A stretch of DNA of 64,000 nt from Streptomyces albogriseolus. GTDB lineage: Bacteria > Actinomycetota > Actinomycetes > Streptomycetales > Streptomycetaceae. The notes beneath the pieces are model-generated. The model was not told the DNA's origin. It did no database searches and was given only the letters and a program-made list of their open reading frames with translations. Location: the NCBI GenBank assembly GCA_014650475.1, contig BMVA01000002.1:434001-498000 (forward strand), given 5' to 3'. Every line of letters begins with the position of its first letter. The first letter of the stretch is position 1. A program made the translations under genes and the position numbers. Positions 2,943 to 27,618 of this stretch are shown piece after piece.

Positions 2943-4376
2943 TCAGCCCGTCCGTCCCGCCCGTGTACGAGGCAGCCACGCCCACATCAGTACCGTGCCG
3001 AACGCCAGGACCGCGGTCCCGGTGGTGAAGACGAGGGCGTAGCCCTCGGTGAGGGCCTCAGGGGTGTCGGCGCCGTTCGTGCGGGCCGCCGCGAGCGTCG
3101 CCATCACCGCGAGGCCGAGGGAACCGCCCATCGTGCGGGAGGTGTTGACCAGGCCGGAGACCAGCCCCGCCTCCTCGGGGGCCGCTCCCGACGTGGCGAG
3201 GGAGGCCAGCGGGGTGCCGGCGAGGCCCGCGCCGAGCATCATCAGGACGCCCGGGATCATGATGGCGGTGAGGTAGTCGCCGTCCGCCGTCATCGTGGAC
3301 TGCCAGGCGAAGCCGGCCAGCGCGACGAGCGTGCCGAGCACGGCCACCGCGCGCGGTCCCGTCGCCCGCATCAGGCGGGGGGCGGCCTTGGAGCCGACGA
3401 TCACCGCGAGCGAGCTCGGCACCAGGGCGAGTCCGGCCTCCAGCGGGGTGTAGCCGAGCACGTTCTGCGCGTAGAGGGTCATGAAGAACCACATGCAGAA
3501 CATCGCGGAACCGCTCAGGAACATCGCCACGTTCGCCGAGGCCACCGACCGCAGCCGCAGCAGTCCGAGCGGCATCAGCGGGGCCTTGGCCCGCGCCTCG
3601 ACGAGGAGGAAGAGGGCGACGAGGGCGAGCCCGGCGCACAGCGGCACCACGGTGGCCGCCGCCGTCCAGCCCGCGGCCTCGGTCTGCGAGATGCCGTAGG
3701 CCAGGGTGGCGAGGCCGGCCGTCACCAAAACCGCGCCCGGCAGGTCGAGCCGCCGCCCGTCCCCCGCCCGGCTCTCGGTCAGCCACCGGGCGGCGCCGGC
3801 CAGCACCACCGCTCCGACGGGGACGTTGATCAGCAGGACCCACCGCCACGACAGGGCGTCGACCAGCACCCCGCCGACGAACCCGCCCGCCGCGCCGCCG
3901 CCCGCCCCGACGGCCGTCCAGGTCGCGATGGCCCGGGCACGGGCCGCGCCCTCCGGCACCGCCGAGGTGACGAGGGTGAGCGTGGAGGGCGCGAGGACGG
4001 CCGCCCCGAGCCCCTGCACGGCCCGCGCCACCAGCAGCTGCCACCCCTCCTGGGCGAGCCCGCCGGCCAGCGAGGCCAGGGTGAACAGCCCGAGCCCGAC
4101 GAGGAACATGCGCTTGCGTCCGTAGAGGTCGCCTGCGCGTCCGCCGAGCAGCATGAAGCCCGCGAACGCGATGGAGTACGCGTTGACCACCCACTGCAGG
4201 CCCCGCTCATCCAGCGCGAGACCGCTGCGCAGGGACGGCAGCGCGACGTTCACCACGGAGATGTCGAGGACGACGAGGAACTGGCCGGCACAGGCGAGCG
4301 CCACCACCAGCCACACGGGGGGAGCGGTACGGGCGGGGGCGCGGGTGGTGTCGGGGGTTTCGAGCATGTGCGTCAT
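2943..4376 (-). CDS. DHA2-family (14-TM) MFS drug efflux transporter
   Basis: This 477-residue protein has 14 predicted membrane segments. It carries the DHA2 signatures LDISVVNVALPSL in helix 1, the motif-A loop GGRAGDLYGRKR between helices 2 and 3, and a motif-C-like Gly-rich stretch in helix 5. Proteins of this EmrB/QacA type export drugs or small metabolites using the proton gradient. The start at 4376 is followed by a second Met at 4367, so either could be used. The gene converges on the response regulator (42-base gap) and is divergent from another MFS gene at 4738. No linked regulator is intact. The substrate is unknown. Confidence 0.9.
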   Translation of the reverse strand: MTHMLETPDTTRAPARTAPPVWLVVALACAGQFLVVLDISVVNVALPSLRSGLALDERGLQWVVNAYSIAFAGFMLLGGRAGDLYGRKRMFLVGLGLFTLASLAGGLAQEGWQLLVARAVQGLGAAVLAPSTLTLVTSAVPEGAARARAIATWTAVGAGGGAAGGFVGGVLVDALSWRWVLLINVPVGAVVLAGAARWLTESRAGDGRRLDLPGAVLVTAGLATLAYGISQTEAAGWTAAATVVPLCAGLALVALFLLVEARAKAPLMPLGLLRLRSVASANVAMFLSGSAMFCMWFFMTLYAQNVLGYTPLEAGLALVPSSLAVIVGSKAAPRLMRATGPRAVAVLGTLVALAGFAWQSTMTADGDYLTAIMIPGVLMMLGAGLAGTPLASLATSGAAPEEAGLVSGLVNTSRTMGGSLGLAVMATLAAARTNGADTPEALTEGYALVFTTGTAVLAFGTVLMWAWLPRTRAGRTG

Positions 4377-19358: not shown

Positions 19359-20931
<1,573 letters not shown>

Positions 20932-20977: not shown

Positions 20978-21082
20978 CGTCTCACGGGTGCCGTGACCCT
21001 CGTCACCTCCCGCGTCCGTGCCTCTCCCCCGCGCACGCGGCCGCCCCGGACGCCCGTTCTACGGGCGGGTAGAGTGGCCGCG

Positions 21083-21180
21083 TCGTATCACAGCCGTACG
21101 GGGGGAAGCCGGTGCGAATCCGGCGCTGACCCGCAACCGTGAGCCGTCCTGGAGACGGTGAGCCGGAATGCCCCGCACGG
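21083..21180 (+). ncRNA. Cobalamin riboswitch (compact form)
   Basis: The leader holds the conserved core blocks of the adenosyl/other-cobalamin aptamer: GGGGGAAGCCGGTGCGAATC, then CCGGCGCTGACCCGCAACC with GTGA, and a closing GGTGAGCCGGAATGCC. It is compact and lacks the long peripheral arm. A -10-like TAGAGT (21070-21075) puts the transcript start near 21082. About 120 bases later the ribosome site AGGGAGAGG can pair in part with CCTCT (21276-21280), so control may act on translation: with cobalamin bound, the downstream uptake operon would be shut off. No strong terminator is seen in the leader. Confidence 0.92.
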
Positions 21181-21303
21181 ATCGTGACCGGCTCACGTGC
21201 CCGGCATCCCGCCGGCGCACGGGCACCGTCGAGGTATACGGAGCCGAGCCGCCGGGGTGTCCCGCGCTGCCCGGCCCTCTTCAGGGAGAGGCACCCGCCC
21301 GTC

Positions 21304-22524
21304 ATGAACGTCCGCCGCAGCGCAGCGGTGCTGGCCGCCGTCGCCGTCCTCGGCGCCGCCGCACCGGCCGCAGCCGACTCGTCCCCGTCGCCGACCCCGC
21401 AGCCGCTGCCGTCCGCGCTGTACGGCGACACCGACCCGCAGTACGACGGGGTGTGGCGTCAGTCGCTCGCCCTGCTCGCCCAGCACGCCGCCGGCGCCGA
21501 GCCGCCGAAGGCCGCCGTCGGCTGGCTGACCGGCCAGCAGTGCGCCGACGGCTCGTTCGCGCCGTTCCGGGCCGACCCGTCCGTCGCGTGCGACGCCAAG
21601 ACGATGGTCGACACCAACCAGACCGCCGCCGCCGTGCAGGCGCTCGCCGCGCTCGGCGGCCACGACGCCGTCATCGGGAAGGCCGTCGGCTGGCTGAAGT
21701 CCGTGCAGAACAAGGACGGCGGCTGGGGCTACACCGCGGGCGGCCCCAGCGACACCAACTCCACGTCCGTCGTCGTCGGCGCGCTCGCCGCCGCCGGTGA
21801 GAAGCCGGGCGAGGTGAAGAAGGGCGGCAAGTCCCCCTACGACGCGCTGCTCGGCCTGGAGCTGCCCTGCACCGGCGAGGGCGCGGGCGCGTTCGCGTAC
21901 CAGCCGGAGAAGGACGGCTCGCTGACCGCCAACGCGGACGCGACGGCGGCGGGCGTGCTCGGTGCGCTCGGCCAGGGCCTGCTGGTGGAGCCCGGCAAGG
22001 GCGACGGCGCGGCGGCCGGCTCCTGCGTCAAGGCGACCACCCCGGAGCAGGCCGCCGCCAACGGCGCCGCCCACCTGGCCGGCGAGCTCGCCGCCAAGGG
22101 CTACCTGCTCGCCGCGACGCCCGGCGCCGAGGACCAGCCCGACGTCGGCAACACCGCCGACGCGGTGGTCGCGCTCGCCGCGCAGGGCGACACGGCCCAG
22201 GCGAAGAAGTCGTACGCCTGGCTGGAGAAGAACGCCGCCGACTGGGCCGCGCAGAGCGGTCCCGCCGCCTACGCGCAGCTCGTCCTCGCCGCCCACGCGA
22301 CCGGCGCGGACCCGCGCGACTTCGGCGGCACGGACCTGGTGAAGCAGCTCCAGGCCGCCGGCCCGGCCGCCCCGGAGAAGACCACGAAGGCGGCGGAGGA
22401 GGCCGAGGACGAGAAGGACGCGGACTCCCCGTTCGGCGTCTGGTGGTTCGTCGGCGTCTGCCTGGTCGCCGGCATCGGCATCGGCTTCCTGGTCAGCAAC
22501 CGCGCCAAGAGGCAGCAGCCGTGA
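21304..22524 (+). CDS. Secreted, membrane-anchored alpha-toroid protein, candidate corrinoid binder
   Basis: The protein has 406 residues. A signal peptide (to about AAAD) is followed by repeated helix pairs with toroid repeats such as WLTGQQCADGSFAPF, WLKSVQNKDGGWGY and NTADAVVALAAQG. A charged linker then precedes one C-terminal helix (WWFVGVCLVAGIGIGFLVS) and a basic tail, so it is fixed to the outer face of the membrane. The alpha/alpha toroid is the fold of the large domain of animal transcobalamin and intrinsic factor. As first gene behind a cobalamin riboswitch it is a good candidate for catching corrinoids. No catalytic motif of a cyclase is seen. Its stop overlaps the next start (GTGA). 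Confidence 0.8.
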   Translation: MNVRRSAAVLAAVAVLGAAAPAAADSSPSPTPQPLPSALYGDTDPQYDGVWRQSLALLAQHAAGAEPPKAAVGWLTGQQCADGSFAPFRADPSVACDAKTMVDTNQTAAAVQALAALGGHDAVIGKAVGWLKSVQNKDGGWGYTAGGPSDTNSTSVVVGALAAAGEKPGEVKKGGKSPYDALLGLELPCTGEGAGAFAYQPEKDGSLTANADATAAGVLGALGQGLLVEPGKGDGAAAGSCVKATTPEQAAANGAAHLAGELAAKGYLLAATPGAEDQPDVGNTADAVVALAAQGDTAQAKKSYAWLEKNAADWAAQSGPAAYAQLVLAAHATGADPRDFGGTDLVKQLQAAGPAAPEKTTKAAEEAEDEKDADSPFGVWWFVGVCLVAGIGIGFLVSNRAKRQQP

Positions 22525-23186
22525 TCCGCCGGGCCACCGTGCTGTTCCTGGCCGCGCTGCTCCCCCTGCTGGCGGGCGCCGGCCAGGCCCAGGCCGCCGG
22601 GTACCGCTACTGGTCCTTCTGGGAGCGGGACGGCTCGGCGTGGACGTACGCCACCGTGGGTCCGTCGCTGTCGCGGCCCGCGGACGGTGACGTCCAGGGC
22701 TTCCGCTTCTCGGTCAGCGAGGACTCGGGCGACGCGGCCAAGCCCCGCGGCGCCGCCGGTTTCGACACGATCTGCGCGAAGACCCCCGCGAAGGACGGCA
22801 CGAAGCGGGTCGCCCTGGTGATCGACTTCGGCACGCCCGGCGACGCCCCGTCCGGGGAGAAGCCGCCGGCCGGCCGCACGGCCTGCGCGCAGGTGGCGGA
22901 GGACGCCACGACGGCGGAGGCGCTGGCCTCGGTCGCCGAGCCGCTGCGCTACGACAGCAACGCGCTGCTGTGCGCGATCGCGGGCTACCCGGCGAAGGGC
23001 TGCGGCGAGCAGGTGGCCACGGACGGGAAGGACTCGTCCCCCACGGAGACCGCCGGGACCGCCGAGACCGCCGGGTCCGCCGAGGACGACGGCGGCTCCG
23101 GGCCCTCCGTGGGTCTGATCGCGGGCGCCGCGGTGGTGGTCGTGCTGGGCGCCGCCGCCGTCTGGCAGGTCCGTCGCCGTGCGTGA
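22521..23186 (+). CDS. Secreted, membrane-anchored 'SCO2322 family' protein
   Basis: The protein has 221 residues: signal peptide (to about AQA|AG), a soluble domain of roughly 130 residues, an acidic Ser/Thr/Glu-rich stalk, and a C-terminal helix with basic tail. The soluble domain starts YRYWSFWERDGSAWTYATVG and has DGDVQGFRF; this aromatic/Gly/DGD pattern is reminiscent of DUF4430, the small beta domain of transcobalamin, though weakly. I recall the family name from S. coelicolor. GTG 22521 overlaps the preceding stop, and the ECF T-component start overlaps its end. It probably works with the toroid protein to pass a corrinoid to the transporter. Cysteines (about four) may form disulfides. 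Confidence 0.78.
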   Translation: MIRRATVLFLAALLPLLAGAGQAQAAGYRYWSFWERDGSAWTYATVGPSLSRPADGDVQGFRFSVSEDSGDAAKPRGAAGFDTICAKTPAKDGTKRVALVIDFGTPGDAPSGEKPPAGRTACAQVAEDATTAEALASVAEPLRYDSNALLCAIAGYPAKGCGEQVATDGKDSSPTETAGTAETAGSAEDDGGSGPSVGLIAGAAVVVVLGAAAVWQVRRRA

Positions 23187-24363
23187 GGCACGCGGCTCCG
23201 GGCGTGCGGGCCTCGCCCGGCCGCGCCCGGAGCGGGGGACCCCGCCCGCCGGCGTCCCCGTCCCGCGTGCGCGCCGCGCCCAGCTGCACCCCGGCGCGTG
23301 GTGGCTGTGGGCCCTCGCGCTGGGCACCGCGGCGACCCGCACCACCAACCCGCTCCTGCTCGCCCTGCTGATCACCGTCTCCGGGTACGTCGTGGCCGTC
23401 CGCCGCCCGCACACGCCGTGGGCCCGCTCCTACGGCGCCTTCGTGAAGCTCGCCGCCGCCGTGCTGCTGCTGCGGCTCGCCTTCGCGGTCTTCCTGGGCT
23501 CGCCGATCCCCGGCACCCACACCCTGTTCACGCTGCCCGAGGTGCCGCTGCCCGACTGGGCGCAGGGCATCCGCCTGGGCGGCCGGGTCACCGCGGAGGG
23601 CCTCACCTTCGCCCTGTACGACGCGCTGCGGCTGGCCGCGCTGCTGATCTGCGTGGGCGCCGCGAACGCCCTCGCCAGCCCGTCCCGCCTGCTGAAGTCG
23701 CTGCCCGGCGCCCTGTACGAGCTGGGCGTGGCCGTGGTGGTGGCGCTGACCTTCGCGCCGAACCTGATCGCCGACGTACGCCGGCTGCGTGCCGCCCGCC
23801 GGCTGCGCGGGCGCCCCGACAAGGGCGTGCGCGGTCTGGTGCAGGTGGGGCTGCCGGTCCTCGAGGGCGCGCTGGAGCGCTCGGTGTCCCTGGCCGCCGC
23901 GATGGACGCGCGCGGGTACGGCCGTACCGCCGAGGTGCCGCCCGCCGTGCGGCGCACCACCGCCGCCCTCACGCTCGGCGGTCTGCTGGGCGTGTGCGCG
24001 GGGACGTACGGGCTGCTCACCGCCGAGGGCGGCAGTTACGGGCTGCCCGTGCTGCTCGTCGGGCTGGCGTCGGCGCTCGCGGGGCTCCGGCTCGGCGGGC
24101 GGCGCACCCTGCGCACCCGCTACCGCCCGGACCCGTGGGACGCCCGCGCCTGGCTGGTCTCCGCCTCGGGCGCCGCCGTGGCGGCCCTCCTGATCCTGGC
24201 CGGCTCGCTGGACCCCGGGGCCCTGCGCCCCGGTGTGGTCCCGCTGGAGCCGCCCACCCTGCCCCTGTGGCCGGCGGCGGCCGTGCTGCTCGGCCTGCTG
24301 CCCGCCTTCGTCACCCCCGCCCCCGAGGCGGCCCCCGACCCCCGCAAGGAGCCGACGACGTGA
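23179..24363 (+). CDS. ECF transporter T component (CbiQ-like)
   Basis: The protein has 394 residues with about eight hydrophobic segments. The cytoplasmic coupling helices carry the two ARR-like signatures of EcfT: RLRAARRLRGRP and AAAMDARGYGRTAEV. The first 35 residues are basic and probably cytoplasmic. GTG 23179 overlaps the previous gene by eight bases; GTG use and the overlap support it. It connects the substrate-binding S component to the ATPases. The family also serves cobalt, biotin and other vitamins, but the cobalamin riboswitch points to a corrinoid here. Confidence 0.9.
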   Translation: MREARGSGRAGLARPRPERGTPPAGVPVPRARRAQLHPGAWWLWALALGTAATRTTNPLLLALLITVSGYVVAVRRPHTPWARSYGAFVKLAAAVLLLRLAFAVFLGSPIPGTHTLFTLPEVPLPDWAQGIRLGGRVTAEGLTFALYDALRLAALLICVGAANALASPSRLLKSLPGALYELGVAVVVALTFAPNLIADVRRLRAARRLRGRPDKGVRGLVQVGLPVLEGALERSVSLAAAMDARGYGRTAEVPPAVRRTTAALTLGGLLGVCAGTYGLLTAEGGSYGLPVLLVGLASALAGLRLGGRRTLRTRYRPDPWDARAWLVSASGAAVAALLILAGSLDPGALRPGVVPLEPPTLPLWPAAAVLLGLLPAFVTPAPEAAPDPRKEPTT

Positions 24364-26021
24364 TCCGCTTCGAGAACGTGTCGGTGACCTACGACGGCGC
24401 GGCGCGGCCCGCCGTGCGGGACGTCGACCTGGAGGTCCCCGAGGGCGAACTGGTGCTGGTGGTGGGCCCGTCCGGCGTCGGCAAGTCGACGGTGCTGGGC
24501 GCGGTCAGCGGACTGGTGCCGCACTTCACCGGCGGCACCCTGCACGGCCGCGTGACGGTCGCGGGCCGCGACACCCGCACCCACAAGCCGCGCGAACTGG
24601 CCGACGTGGTGGGCACGGTGGGCCAGGACCCGCTGTCCCACTTCGTGACGGACACGGTGGAGGACGAACTCGCCTACGGCATGGAGTCGCTGGGCCTGCC
24701 GCCGGACGTGATGCGCCGCCGCGTGGAGGAGACCCTGGACCTGCTGGGCCTGGCCGATCTGCGGGACCGGCACATCTCCACGCTGTCCGGCGGCCAGCAG
24801 CAGCGGGTGGCCATCGGCTCGGTCCTCACCCCGCACCCGAAGGTGCTGGTCCTGGACGAGCCGACGTCCGCCCTGGACCCCGCGGCCGCCGAGGAGGTCC
24901 TCGCCGTCCTCCAGCGCCTGGTGCACGACCTGGGCACCACGATCCTGATGGCCGAGCACCGCCTGGAGCGGGTGGTGCAGTACGCGGACCAGGTCGTGCT
25001 GCTGCCGCCCGGCGAGCGGCCCCGGATGGGCGCCCCGGCGGACGTCATGGCGGTCTCCCCGGTCTGCCCGCCGGTGGTCGAGCTGGGCCGCCTGGCCGGC
25101 TGGGCCCCGCTGCCCCTGACGGTCCGCGACGCCCGCCGCAGGGCGGCCCCGCTGCGGGACCGCCTGGAGGGCAGGCAGCCCGAGCGGCATACGACCGAGC
25201 CCCGGACGGCTCCCCCGGTGAAGCGCCTCTTCGGTCGGGCGAAGAAGCCGCACGACGGCGCTCCCGAGCCGGTGGCCGAGGTGCGCTCGCTCGCCGTCCG
25301 CCGCGACCGGGTGCGGGCGCTCACCCACGTGGACCTCACGGTGTCGCCCGGCGAGACGATCGCGCTCATGGGCCGCAACGGCGCCGGCAAGTCGACGCTG
25401 CTCGGCGCGATGGTGGGGCTGGTCGCCCCGTCCTCGGGATCGGTCCGCACCGGGGGCGCGGTCCCCCACCGCACCCGCCCCCGCGACCTGGTCCGCAAGG
25501 TCGGCCTGGTCCCGCAGGAGCCCCGCGACCTGCTGTACGCGGACACGGTGGCGGCGGAGTGCGCGGCCGCCGACCGGGACGCGGAGGCGGAGCCCGGCAC
25601 CTGCCGCGCGCTGCTCACCGAGCTGCTGCCGTCGGTGGCCGACGACAGCCATCCCCGCGACCTGTCCGAGGGGCAGCGGCTCACGCTCGCCCTCGCGGTG
25701 GTGCTCACCGCCCGGCCGCCCCTGCTGCTGCTCGACGAGCCGACCCGCGGACTGGACTACGCGGCGAAGGCACGGCTGACGGCGATCCTGCGCCGGCTGG
25801 CCGCCGAGGGCCACGCCATCGTCATGGCCACGCACGACGTGGAGCTGGCGGCGGAACTGGCGCACCGGGTGGTGCTGCTCGCCGAGGGCGAGGTGATCGC
25901 GGACGGCCCGTCGGCGGAGGTCGTCGTGGCGTCCCCGGCGTTCGCCCCGCAGGTGGCGAAGATCCTGGCGCCGCAGCCCTGGCTCACGGTCGCCCAGGTG
26001 AAGGAGGCGCTGGAGCGATGA
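24360..26021 (+). CDS. ECF transporter ATPase with two fused ABC domains
   Basis: The protein has 553 residues. Domain 1 (about 1-240): Walker A GPSGVGKST, signature LSGGQQQR, Walker B VLVLDEPT and switch His in MAEHRLE. Domain 2 (about 300-545): Walker A GRNGAGKST, signature LSEGQRL, Walker B LLLLDEPT, switch His in MATHDVE. The second signature has Glu in place of Gly, so the two ATP sites may differ. The linker is basic. Fusing A and A' in one chain is common for vitamin ECF systems in actinobacteria. GTG 24360 overlaps the T-component stop (GTGA) and the end overlaps the S component (ATGA). Confidence 0.95.
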   Translation: MIRFENVSVTYDGAARPAVRDVDLEVPEGELVLVVGPSGVGKSTVLGAVSGLVPHFTGGTLHGRVTVAGRDTRTHKPRELADVVGTVGQDPLSHFVTDTVEDELAYGMESLGLPPDVMRRRVEETLDLLGLADLRDRHISTLSGGQQQRVAIGSVLTPHPKVLVLDEPTSALDPAAAEEVLAVLQRLVHDLGTTILMAEHRLERVVQYADQVVLLPPGERPRMGAPADVMAVSPVCPPVVELGRLAGWAPLPLTVRDARRRAAPLRDRLEGRQPERHTTEPRTAPPVKRLFGRAKKPHDGAPEPVAEVRSLAVRRDRVRALTHVDLTVSPGETIALMGRNGAGKSTLLGAMVGLVAPSSGSVRTGGAVPHRTRPRDLVRKVGLVPQEPRDLLYADTVAAECAAADRDAEAEPGTCRALLTELLPSVADDSHPRDLSEGQRLTLALAVVLTARPPLLLLDEPTRGLDYAAKARLTAILRRLAAEGHAIVMATHDVELAAELAHRVVLLAEGEVIADGPSAEVVVASPAFAPQVAKILAPQPWLTVAQVKEALER

Positions 26022-26866
26022 GCACGCCGACCACCCCCGCACGGCCCGCGGACCGCCAGGCCCGAGCGCTGCGCCTCGGCCCCCGCACCTGGCTGGCGCT
26101 GGCCCTGGTGAGCTTGGTGGGCGTGGCCGGCTTCGGCTGGCCGTTCCTCGCCCCGCCCGAGTCGGCGGTGAACGCGCACGAGGGCGACGCCCCGTGGCTG
26201 TTCGCCGGGCTGCTCGTGCTGCTGGTCGCCGTGGTGGCGGCGGCCCTGTCGGAGTCGGACCTGGGCGCGAAGGCGGTGGCGATGCTCGGCGTCCTCGCGG
26301 CGGCGGGCGCGGCCCTGCGCCCCGTGGGCGCGGGCACGGCCGGTCTTGAACCCATGTTCTTCCTGATGGTGCTCAGCGGCCGGGTCCTCGGCCCGGGGTT
26401 CGGCTTCGCCCTGGGCTCGGTCACGATGTTCGCGTCCGCGCTGCTCACCGGCGGGGTGGGCCCCTGGCTGCCGTTCCAGATGCTGGCGATGGGCTGGTTC
26501 ACCATGGGCGCGGGCTTCCTGCCCGGCCCGGACCGGCTGCGGGGCCGCAGGGAGGTGTGGATGCTCGCCGTGTACGGCTTCCTGGCCGCCTTCGCCTACG
26601 GCACGGCGATGAACCTGGCGGGCTGGACCTTCATGAGCTCGCTCGCCTCGAACATCTCCTTCGACGGCGACGACCCGGTGGCCGCCAACCTGGCCCGCTT
26701 CGTCGCGTACTGCCTGGCCACCTCCCTGGGCTGGGACCTGGGGCGGGCCGTGATCACGGTGGTGCTGACGCTGACCGTCGGCGCGACGGTGCTGCGGGCG
26801 CTGCGCCGCGCCACGCGCAGGGCCGCCTTCGAGGCGCCGGTCACATTCGGCGACGCCCCTCGGTGA
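26018..26866 (+). CDS. ECF transporter S (substrate-binding) component, probably corrinoid
   Basis: The protein has 282 residues with about seven hydrophobic segments and a disordered N-terminus. The segment GLEPMFFLMVLSGRVLGPGFGFALGSVTMFASALLTGGVGPWLPFQMLAMGW has the Gly/Pro-rich loops of S components that grip a vitamin (read as GRVLGPGFGFALGSVTMF and GVGPWLPFQMLAMGW). ATG 26018 overlaps the ATPase stop, making a five-gene coupled operon under the cobalamin riboswitch. Cobalamin or a precursor is therefore the likely substrate. A short hairpin (GGCGCG/CGCGCC, 26868-26881) follows the stop. Confidence 0.85.
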   Translation: MSTPTTPARPADRQARALRLGPRTWLALALVSLVGVAGFGWPFLAPPESAVNAHEGDAPWLFAGLLVLLVAVVAAALSESDLGAKAVAMLGVLAAAGAALRPVGAGTAGLEPMFFLMVLSGRVLGPGFGFALGSVTMFASALLTGGVGPWLPFQMLAMGWFTMGAGFLPGPDRLRGRREVWMLAVYGFLAAFAYGTAMNLAGWTFMSSLASNISFDGDDPVAANLARFVAYCLATSLGWDLGRAVITVVLTLTVGATVLRALRRATRRAAFEAPVTFGDAPR

Positions 26867-27169
26867 GGGCGCGTGCGCGCCGTGTGGGCGAGACGGTGAA
26901 GCACCCCACATGACCGGCGTCACATACGAAGGAGGGTCGTAGGCGGTCCGCGCGCCCCCTTACGGCCACGTGCGCGAAATCGGACGTTGCGGACATTGAA
27001 CCCGGGTCGCCTCCGACCATCGGTAGTAAAAGGGACCTTTGCGGGCGATCCGGGGATTTGCTTCTGTGGAGCAGTCGCCAGGCGCCGACGAACCCCACGG
27101 GTCGCGGCGCCGACGTATGCCCCCGCCGGACGGCGGGGCCGCCCCCTGCTTCCGACCGAAAGGCCGCCT
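26867..27169 (+). other. Intergenic region with structured leader of the transglycosylase gene
   Basis: These 303 bases hold no gene. TACGA/TCGTA arms flank a GGAGG at 26925-26941. A -10-like TAGTAA sits at 27024-27029 without a well-spaced -35. Downstream lie nested complementary segments: GGCGA...TCGCC enclosing TTGCT...AGCA (about 27043-27079), then GGCGCCG...CGGCGCC (about 27081-27111), then GCCCCCGCC/GGCGGGGC (about 27119-27139). This is a well-structured 5' leader. Cell-wall hydrolase genes in Streptomyces often have a c-di-AMP (ydaO) riboswitch, but I do not find its conserved blocks here, so its identity is open. Confidence 0.45.
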
Positions 27170-27598
27170 GTGTCCGCCGTTTCCCTCCTCCGCTCCGTCG
27201 CCACCCCGAAGAAGGCTGTGCTCGGCGCCGCCCTGACGGCCGCCACGTGCGGCACGCTGATCGCCGCCGCGCCCGCGCAGGCCGCGACCACGGCGGCCCC
27301 CGCCTCCGCCGCCTCGGCCCAGGCGACCGCGAAGAAGATGATCGGCAACTCGGCCGAGTTCCAGTGCTTCTCCAACATCGTGTCGCACGAGAGCGGCTGG
27401 AACCCGCAGGCCACCAACGCCTCCAGCGGCGCCTACGGCCTGGTCCAGGCGCTCCCGGCCTCGAAGATGGCCTCGGCCGGCTCCGACTGGAAGACCAACC
27501 CGGCCACCCAGATCAAGTGGGGCCTGGACTACATGAAGGACCGCTACGGCAGCGCCTGTGACGCCTGGTCCTTCTGGCAGGCCAACAACTGGTACTGA
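27170..27598 (+). CDS. Secreted lytic transglycosylase, SLT domain
   Basis: The protein has 142 residues. A signal peptide ends near APAQA|AT. The mature part is a minimal SLT (lysozyme-like) domain with the catalytic Glu in IVSHESGWNPQATNASSGAYGLVQ and the closing YMKDRYGSACDAWSFW. It resembles the short SLT proteins of Streptomyces that act during spore germination and growth, cutting the glycan backbone of peptidoglycan. GTG 27170 has GAAAGG six bases upstream; the longer reading upstream crosses the structured leader and was rejected. A strong terminator follows. Confidence 0.9.
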   Translation: MSAVSLLRSVATPKKAVLGAALTAATCGTLIAAAPAQAATTAAPASAASAQATAKKMIGNSAEFQCFSNIVSHESGWNPQATNASSGAYGLVQALPASKMASAGSDWKTNPATQIKWGLDYMKDRYGSACDAWSFWQANNWY

Positions 27599-27618
27599 CG
27601 AGCGTCACCCCTGATACC

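Follow-up and report, generated by a model that had tools for sequence, protein, structure and literature searches.

Two secreted proteins of named but uncharacterised Streptomyces families, SCO2321 and SCO2322, are encoded between a cobalamin riboswitch and an energy-coupling factor (ECF) importer; what do they bind, and where do they come from? The locus lies in a stretch of 64,000 nucleotides from Streptomyces albogriseolus (contig BMVA01000002.1), referred to as the window (window coordinate = contig coordinate - 434000). An earlier note on this DNA had proposed that they are the two parts of transcobalamin, an alpha/alpha toroid and a small beta domain, split into two genes. By sequence comparison this is a real and widespread operon behind a B12-type riboswitch, and both receptor parts are circularly permuted. 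We think it probable that it is a B12-repressed corrinoid uptake operon, in which the two anchored proteins would form a split and permuted transcobalamin-type binder (toroid plus beta-grasp) feeding the ECF importer. Its elements are as follows.

21057..21192 (core 21083-21188), + strand: cobalamin riboswitch aptamer (Rfam RF00174; operon-leader covariance model)
21304..22524, + strand: secreted membrane-anchored toroid protein, SCO2321 family (NCBIfam NF053823; squalene-cyclase/prenyltransferase toroid matches)
21418..22350, + strand: circularly permuted alpha/alpha toroid domain (from a rotation scan with usual-order toroids as reference)
22521..23186, + strand: secreted membrane-anchored beta-domain protein, SCO2322 family (NCBIfam NF040672, GPS-CTERM)
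22575..22721, + strand: beta half B (YWSFW...DGDVQGFRFSV), which is usually second but comes first here (profile A4 positions 64-113)
22800..23018, + strand: beta half A (KRVALVIDFG...LLCAIAGYP..GCG), which is usually first but comes second here (profile A4 positions 4-70)
23179..24363, + strand: ECF T component, CbiQ family (Pfam PF02361, 37.2 bits against a cut-off of 25)
24360..26021, + strand: fused double ECF ATPase (PF00005, ABC_tran, two stretches, 190 bits)
26018..26866, + strand: ECF S component, substrate-specific (Pfam PF12822, ECF_trnsprt, 32.1 bits against a cut-off of 30.7)

The operon and its riboswitch

The riboswitch is followed by the toroid protein, the SCO2322-family protein, the T component, the double ATPase and the S component, and consecutive genes overlap by 4, 8, 4 and 4 bases. 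This bears out the layout read in the earlier note, namely a cobalamin riboswitch, five genes overlapping by 4-8 bases, two secreted products each with a C-terminal helix anchor, and ECF T, fused double ATPase and S components. RF00174 is matched above its gathering score, the importer parts all exceed their Pfam cut-offs (PF02361, PF00005 twice and PF12822), and the first two products carry hydrophobic segments at both ends, the C-terminal one followed by a basic tail (residues 6-24 and 379-397 in the product of gene 21304, residues 1-19 and 196-214 in that of gene 22521). The 21304 product is a full-length SCO2321_fam member (608 bits against an NCBIfam cut-off of 300) with one squalene-cyclase toroid match above the Pfam cut-off (29.5 against 26.1 bits), and the 22521 product is a full-length SCO2322_fam member (235 bits against 85) with a GPS-CTERM match; four cysteines are kept in 68/68 aligned rows of 22521-type proteins. 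For the S component PF12822 is the sole Pfam family at E<=1, with no match to a CbiM family. A profile search found the SCO2322 family in 177 of 197 genomes of the same order, and the T component of the window is 96% identical to its counterpart in S. althioticus JCM 4344 (L214).

RF00174 matches positions 21057-21192 (+) with 35.2 bits (gathering score 31.5; E 2.8e-5), and a covariance model of 21 operon leaders, the window's being one of its training rows, matches 21083-21188 with 110.7 bits. In these leaders, whose alignment supplied the very structure that was then tested, 96.4% of cells are paired and the covariation score of 0.203 was equalled by 0/500 shuffles. Cells changed on both sides number 28 (shuffled mean 8.6; 0/500 shuffles reach 28) and covarying pairs 6 (shuffled mean 4.5; 86/500 shuffles reach 6). 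RNA folding of 21190-21320 revealed no unusual stability (z -0.47) that would point to one mode of control.

Loci of relatives were collected through the T component, and the best 80 of 560 confirmed candidates are our named loci. A strict regular expression for the riboswitch caught just 31 of the 69 testable ones (11 others were untestable), and the covariance model was used instead. At E <=1e-5 it matches the leaders of 68 out of the 74 named loci searched, upstream and on the operon strand (20 of the 68 are training rows, and 6 of the 80 were not given to the model); of its misses L150, L204 and L215 lie near contig edges and L168, L189 and L221 do not. At phylum and class level 37 of 39 loci match at E 0.01, with misses at L063 and L136; no T component was found in three of the 39 (L127, L136, L137). 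The Rfam families at gathering score match in 24 of 40 phylum/class loci, although in L076/L125 (one region) and L132 on the opposite strand only, so that the riboswitch there serves another gene.

In the window's own genome a first look gave 715 candidates, of which 150 were scored and 6 match RF00174. A match of 94.2 bits, among the top two, precedes the gene of a BtuF-like binding protein (G000 C1:561631-562742, with Peripla_BP_2) and marks a second, classical B12 uptake route. The other host riboswitches presumably precede CbiM-like cobalt, cobD/cobQ-like, ribonucleotide-reductase-like and CbtA-like genes, whose frames were judged by eye. For S. coelicolor, PMC4991794 states that B12 riboswitches had been proposed for eight further genes or clusters besides nrdABS.

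Circular permutation of the two surface proteins

A phylum search with the SCO2322 model matched some distant genomes (G575, G327, G552, G472) as two halves in swapped order. In usual-order relatives half A (VxxVVDxG...LLCxIDGYP..C) leads and half B (YWSYW...GxVEGWRF) follows, an order that is reversed in Streptomyces. When rotated, 56 window-type beta domains and 20 usual-order ones align across 104 columns (probability 99.8, E 3e-28), whereas 57 of them left unrotated align over just 42 (E 1.7e-15); one of the 57 failed the rotation rule and was dropped. Here and below, E-values from hhalign refer to a single comparison and are not database-wide. The usual-order profile A4 (386 genomes) matched the beta gene of 12/12 same-genus genomes as two swapped pieces, and in the window its positions 64-113 come first, followed by 4-70. 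Among the best 80 of 560 loci, some of which had seeded the toroid and half profiles that later scanned them, the beta domain is permuted in 67 and in the usual order in 6. Two more have half B alone by profile and were judged usual-order by eye, and 5 lack a complete beta gene, 4 of these being loci at contig edges; B thus precedes A in 67 of the 75 named loci with a readable order (2 by eye). Relative to its relatives the 22521 beta domain is, by these alignments, circularly permuted.

For the toroid, a 56-row window-type alignment was rotated in steps of 20 and compared each time with 11 usual-order toroids (of 15 picks, 10 were used directly, a typed copy stands in for that of L125, and 4 with a wrong automatic start were excluded). 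The scan gave a single maximum at cut 200 (283 columns, score 420), against 183 columns and a score of 296 without rotation and a scan minimum of 214. Repeats give toroids some score at any rotation, and the telling feature is the single peak; by this measure the toroid of the window is circularly permuted as well. A search with the toroid profile matched squalene cyclases and not transcobalamin.

Relation to DUF4430 and to transcobalamin

The earlier note had seen in 22521 a pattern reminiscent of DUF4430 and had called for a profile comparison, which we carried out. The 54 usual-order beta domains align with 30 Pfam DUF4430 domains in order over 75 columns (probability 89.8, E 1.8e-6). Addition of three Streptomyces DUF4430 rows gave E 4.9e-6, and further addition of the L126 row, which is only narrowly above the Pfam cut-off, gave E 8.9e-8 with a score of 45.6, compared with 18.9 for the best of 100 column shuffles and 10.8 for the reversed profile. 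Smaller sets gave E 4.7e-4 (20 usual-order against 30 DUF4430 domains; score 25.7 against a best of 16.8 in 30 shuffles) and E 0.019 (12 against 13). In Pfam searches PF14478 matched neither 22521, native or with its halves swapped by hand, nor three single beta proteins; permutation explains only partly why Pfam misses 22521, because the swapped copy was missed too. The 22521 sequence and the beta profiles had no credible match among PDB sequences. Run on the PDB, a DUF4430 profile made from 11 domains together with rows for L125 and L143 matched 3u7z, a putative metal-binding protein (E 1.3e-4), transcobalamin-2 (5no0, E 0.0023), transcobalamin-1 (4kki, 0.013) and full-length transcobalamin-2 (0.038). 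Taken together, profile comparison through relatives supports a grouping of 22521 with the DUF4430/transcobalamin beta domains.

Fusions and linking operons in relatives

Unlike the window with its two genes, some relatives have toroid and beta domain in one chain, and in both orders (L065, L069, L203). In L065 a toroid, two tandem beta domains and CWB2 wall repeats share one 961-residue frame, and L069 has a toroid, one beta domain and CWB2 wall repeats in one 771-residue frame (toroid found by tblastn with the window protein, beta domains by profile A4, wall repeats by Pfam). L203 joins beta domain, toroid and SLH (S-layer) domains in one protein, with a riboswitch match on the same strand; its half A was found by profile and its half B by eye. 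The tandem [AB][AB] beta region after the toroid in L065 (3397-6279, +) is a duplication of the type able to yield a B-A permuted domain.

Two loci from same-genus genomes that also have a permuted copy, L125 and L143, each hold a further operon with, in this order, a riboswitch, a usual-order beta gene, T, A and S components, a toroid gene and a gene above the Pfam DUF4430 cut-off, and in L126 the DUF4430 gene (24.4 against 23.8 bits) comes first, ahead of toroid and beta. In L129 and L130 the beta gene stands after the riboswitch with no toroid gene between. One same-genus genome also has a DUF4430 gene that stands by itself (L127 8598-9287, -), with a riboswitch match at its start and no ECF gene found within 16 kb. 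A linear Streptomyces plasmid (NZ_CP108001.1, L269 3818-6636) has annotated ECF T and ATP-binding genes, the latter resembling the operon ATPase; the riboswitch model gave no match at this plasmid locus.

Probable corrinoid capture and its alternatives

The likely function of the surface proteins is corrinoid capture for the ECF importer. When cobalamin is scarce the riboswitch would permit expression of the operon, as its RNA family suggests. The surface proteins, by profile an alpha/alpha toroid and a beta-grasp domain (DUF4430/SLBB, the transcobalamin C-terminal domain) encoded apart, may both capture corrinoid outside the membrane, with the beta domain probably indispensable and the toroid assisting by closing over the ligand. 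The make-up of the operon and ECF biochemistry suggest that they would hand the corrinoid over to the S component and that T/A/A would drive its ATP-dependent import. CobJ, the one marker used for B12 synthesis, was not found above cut-off in 23 of 32 family-bearing genomes, including 13/13 f99 genomes; if these use B12 they probably must import it. The operon is found in likely B12 non-makers and makers alike.

Several observations weigh against corrinoid capture by a transcobalamin-type pair. The window's host has CobJ, so that it probably makes B12, and it also carries the BtuF-like gene behind a riboswitch. A PDB profile search with the S component matched no solved B12 S component by sequence and gave weak matches only (e.g. 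a FolT-type S component, E 5.7). In L209 a riboswitch (3849-4020, +) stands directly before T, A and S, and no beta or toroid gene was found; conversely, no T component was found within 13-14 kb of the permuted beta genes of L136 (5757-6137, +) and L137 (6350-6775, +), of which L136 is also without riboswitch match or toroid while L137 retains both. On the side of the beta domain, neither beta profile matched transcobalamin directly in the PDB, the unrelated SUI1 factor (E 0.017) ranks between the transcobalamins in the DUF4430-profile search, and the rotated window-type set alone compares weakly with DUF4430 (E 2.3e-4 or 0.002, 48 columns). Since the direct PDB and rotated-set comparisons are empty or weak, the DUF4430 link of 22521 runs via its relatives: the likeness claimed earlier holds for the usual-order domains (E 1.8e-6) but not for the single sequence, and it is weak for the rotated set. 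Finally, 12 of the 19 genomes searched have a beta gene and no toroid-profile match, the locus having been read in 7 of these and the other 5 being known from the beta match alone.

The last count bears on what the toroid is for. The toroid profile does match in 4/4 genomes whose toroid and beta genes are neighbours, and in 3 whose toroid lies elsewhere; in these three a riboswitch lies upstream of the separate place (L265/L268, L266, L267). By these searches the toroid seems dispensable, not obligatory. Of the proposal that transcobalamin parts are split into two genes, the kinship of the parts survives through profile homology and through relatives that fuse both, but an obligatory two-part receptor is not supported. 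One could go further and take the beta protein alone as the corrinoid receptor, with the toroid as an optional accessory (e.g. for wall presentation or ligand protection) and no transcobalamin-like sandwich. The toroid-less genomes and the riboswitch-beta arrangement of L129 and L130 would suit this, as would the solved Transcobalamin-2 chain 5no0, which at 108 residues is about the size of a beta domain. Yet relatives fuse toroid and beta in both orders, and a separately placed toroid has its own riboswitch in 3 genomes, which makes this explanation rather unlikely in our judgement.

It is improbable that the operon imports not a corrinoid but cobalt, a lower-ligand base or another B12-related molecule. 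Cobalt transport is also found under B12 riboswitches, in the host itself CbiM-like and CbtA-like genes (by eye) follow them, and by sequence the S component is close to no characterised protein; however, it matches PF12822 and no CbiM family, and the surface proteins group with a cobalamin-binding superfamily. Because of the PF12822 match and the existence of a separate CbiM-like system, corrinoid fits better, and cobalt is an unlikely substrate. It is very improbable that usual-order beta domains resemble DUF4430 by chance or through composition and that SCO2322 has some other, unrelated fold of a small secreted protein: single sequences miss PF14478, the PDB search had no credible match, the smaller comparisons are weaker (E 4.7e-4 and 0.019) and the best E-value depends on the added L126 row, but without that row E is still 1.8e-6, in order over 75 columns, the shuffled and reversed controls score far lower, and Pfam DUF4430 genes share these very operons.

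Evolution of the two permutations

Did the two surface proteins become permuted together? Among 116 T-bearing loci, 59 combine a permuted beta with a permuted toroid, 21 have both in the usual order (20 distinct, L076 being the L125 region), 2 have a usual beta with a permuted toroid (L163, L208) and 0 the reverse; the remaining 34 gave no clear call for one or both domains. A T tree of 78 of 117 rows, with most Streptomyces, L076 (the L125 region) and short rows left out, places L163 and L208 among relatives whose toroids keep the usual order (support 100/95 and 100/99). A single event that permuted both proteins jointly is ruled out by these two loci, which have a permuted toroid and a usual-order beta within a usual-order-toroid clade, and their position implies repeated permutation or replacement of the toroid. 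Each trait needs at least 3 changes on the careful T tree, against 2 and 3 on a quick tree; a single origin of the beta permutation is compatible with the data (approximately unbiased test, p-AU 0.148). As a separate observation, the permuted toroids of L163 (1863-3551, +) and L208 (3135-4973, +) have LPETG-type sortase motif ends, and the usual-order toroids of relatives in their clade have SLH-like (by eye) or other ends.

A tentative history, to which we give somewhat less than even credence, would be that ECF importers with a wall- or membrane-anchored transcobalamin-type receptor feeding the S component are widespread in Actinomycetota and that the Streptomyces branch split and permuted both parts, the toroid being permuted or replaced at least twice (by eye, at a similar cut) and the beta domain probably permuted via tandem duplication, an [AB][AB] copy still being found in L065. 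The permuted beta protein would have become a sufficient docking adaptor, and the toroid would have been lost in some lineages.

Flanking features

Directly upstream of the riboswitch lies a gene for a GH10 xylanase-type protein with CBM2 (19525-20931, +), for which a link to the operon was not seen. A long leader (26950-27600, +) stands ahead of a secreted transglycosylase-like gene whose frame was judged by eye. A cyclic di-adenosine monophosphate (c-di-AMP) riboswitch was suspected in this leader, but Rfam at a relaxed threshold gave no match.

Comparison with known systems

The NCBIfam entries SCO2321_fam and SCO2322_fam give names and no function, and our analysis offers a testable one for both. 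It would extend the transcobalamin lineage to Actinomycetota, and it indicates that domain databases overlook such domains in part because they are circularly permuted. A pair of neighbouring proteins, both permuted, also offers an unusual natural example in which to study the tolerance of binding halves to permutation. The textbook view is that ECF systems need no extracellular binding protein; if the present importer does have its own surface receptor, that view would have to be qualified. SEED/RegPrecise are reported to predict a CbrTUV cobalamin ECF system here. A literature search, with most subscription papers outside its reach, found no account of this system in Actinomycetota.

The closest described systems are those of Burroughs et al. 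2007 (PMC1796856), where passages of the paper propose that operons with transcobalamin-like SLBB domains, toroids and CbiO/CbiQ scavenge B12 in low-GC Gram-positives and that animals acquired the SLBB/toroid pair from these bacteria. The text assigns the clade to low-GC Gram-positives, planctomycetes and euryarchaea. In its main text the words "Streptomyces", "circular", "permut" and "riboswitch" do not occur; a few actinobacteria are named in figure legends (C. glutamicum, K. radiotolerans, Mycobacterium sp. MCS), for this or another clade. Circular permutation in another beta-grasp family is described by the same group in passages of PMC1949818.

As far as these passages of PMC1796856 go, the systems are alike in having a secreted or anchored beta-grasp domain, a toroid fused on either side, a CbiO/CbiQ-type transporter and a predicted role in B12 scavenging, often in organisms without B12 enzymes; unlike them, the window system belongs to Actinomycetota, is split and permuted and is missed by Pfam DUF4430. 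Surface B12 binders of the BtuH type in Bacteroidetes, described in parts of PMC8941943, are also B12-binding uptake proteins, of a different phylum and system, and the main text of that paper does not contain the word transcobalamin. ECF-CbrT of Lactobacillus delbrueckii is an ECF-type importer like that of the window and moves cobalamin and cobinamide; the available passages of its description (PMC5997447) mention no surface capture protein, and the S component of the window has no profile match among PDB sequences. Animal transcobalamin and intrinsic factor share the toroid and the DUF4430-type beta domain with the window. In animals these form one polypeptide in the usual order (PMC1796856), whereas in the window they are carried by two anchored proteins, both of them permuted.

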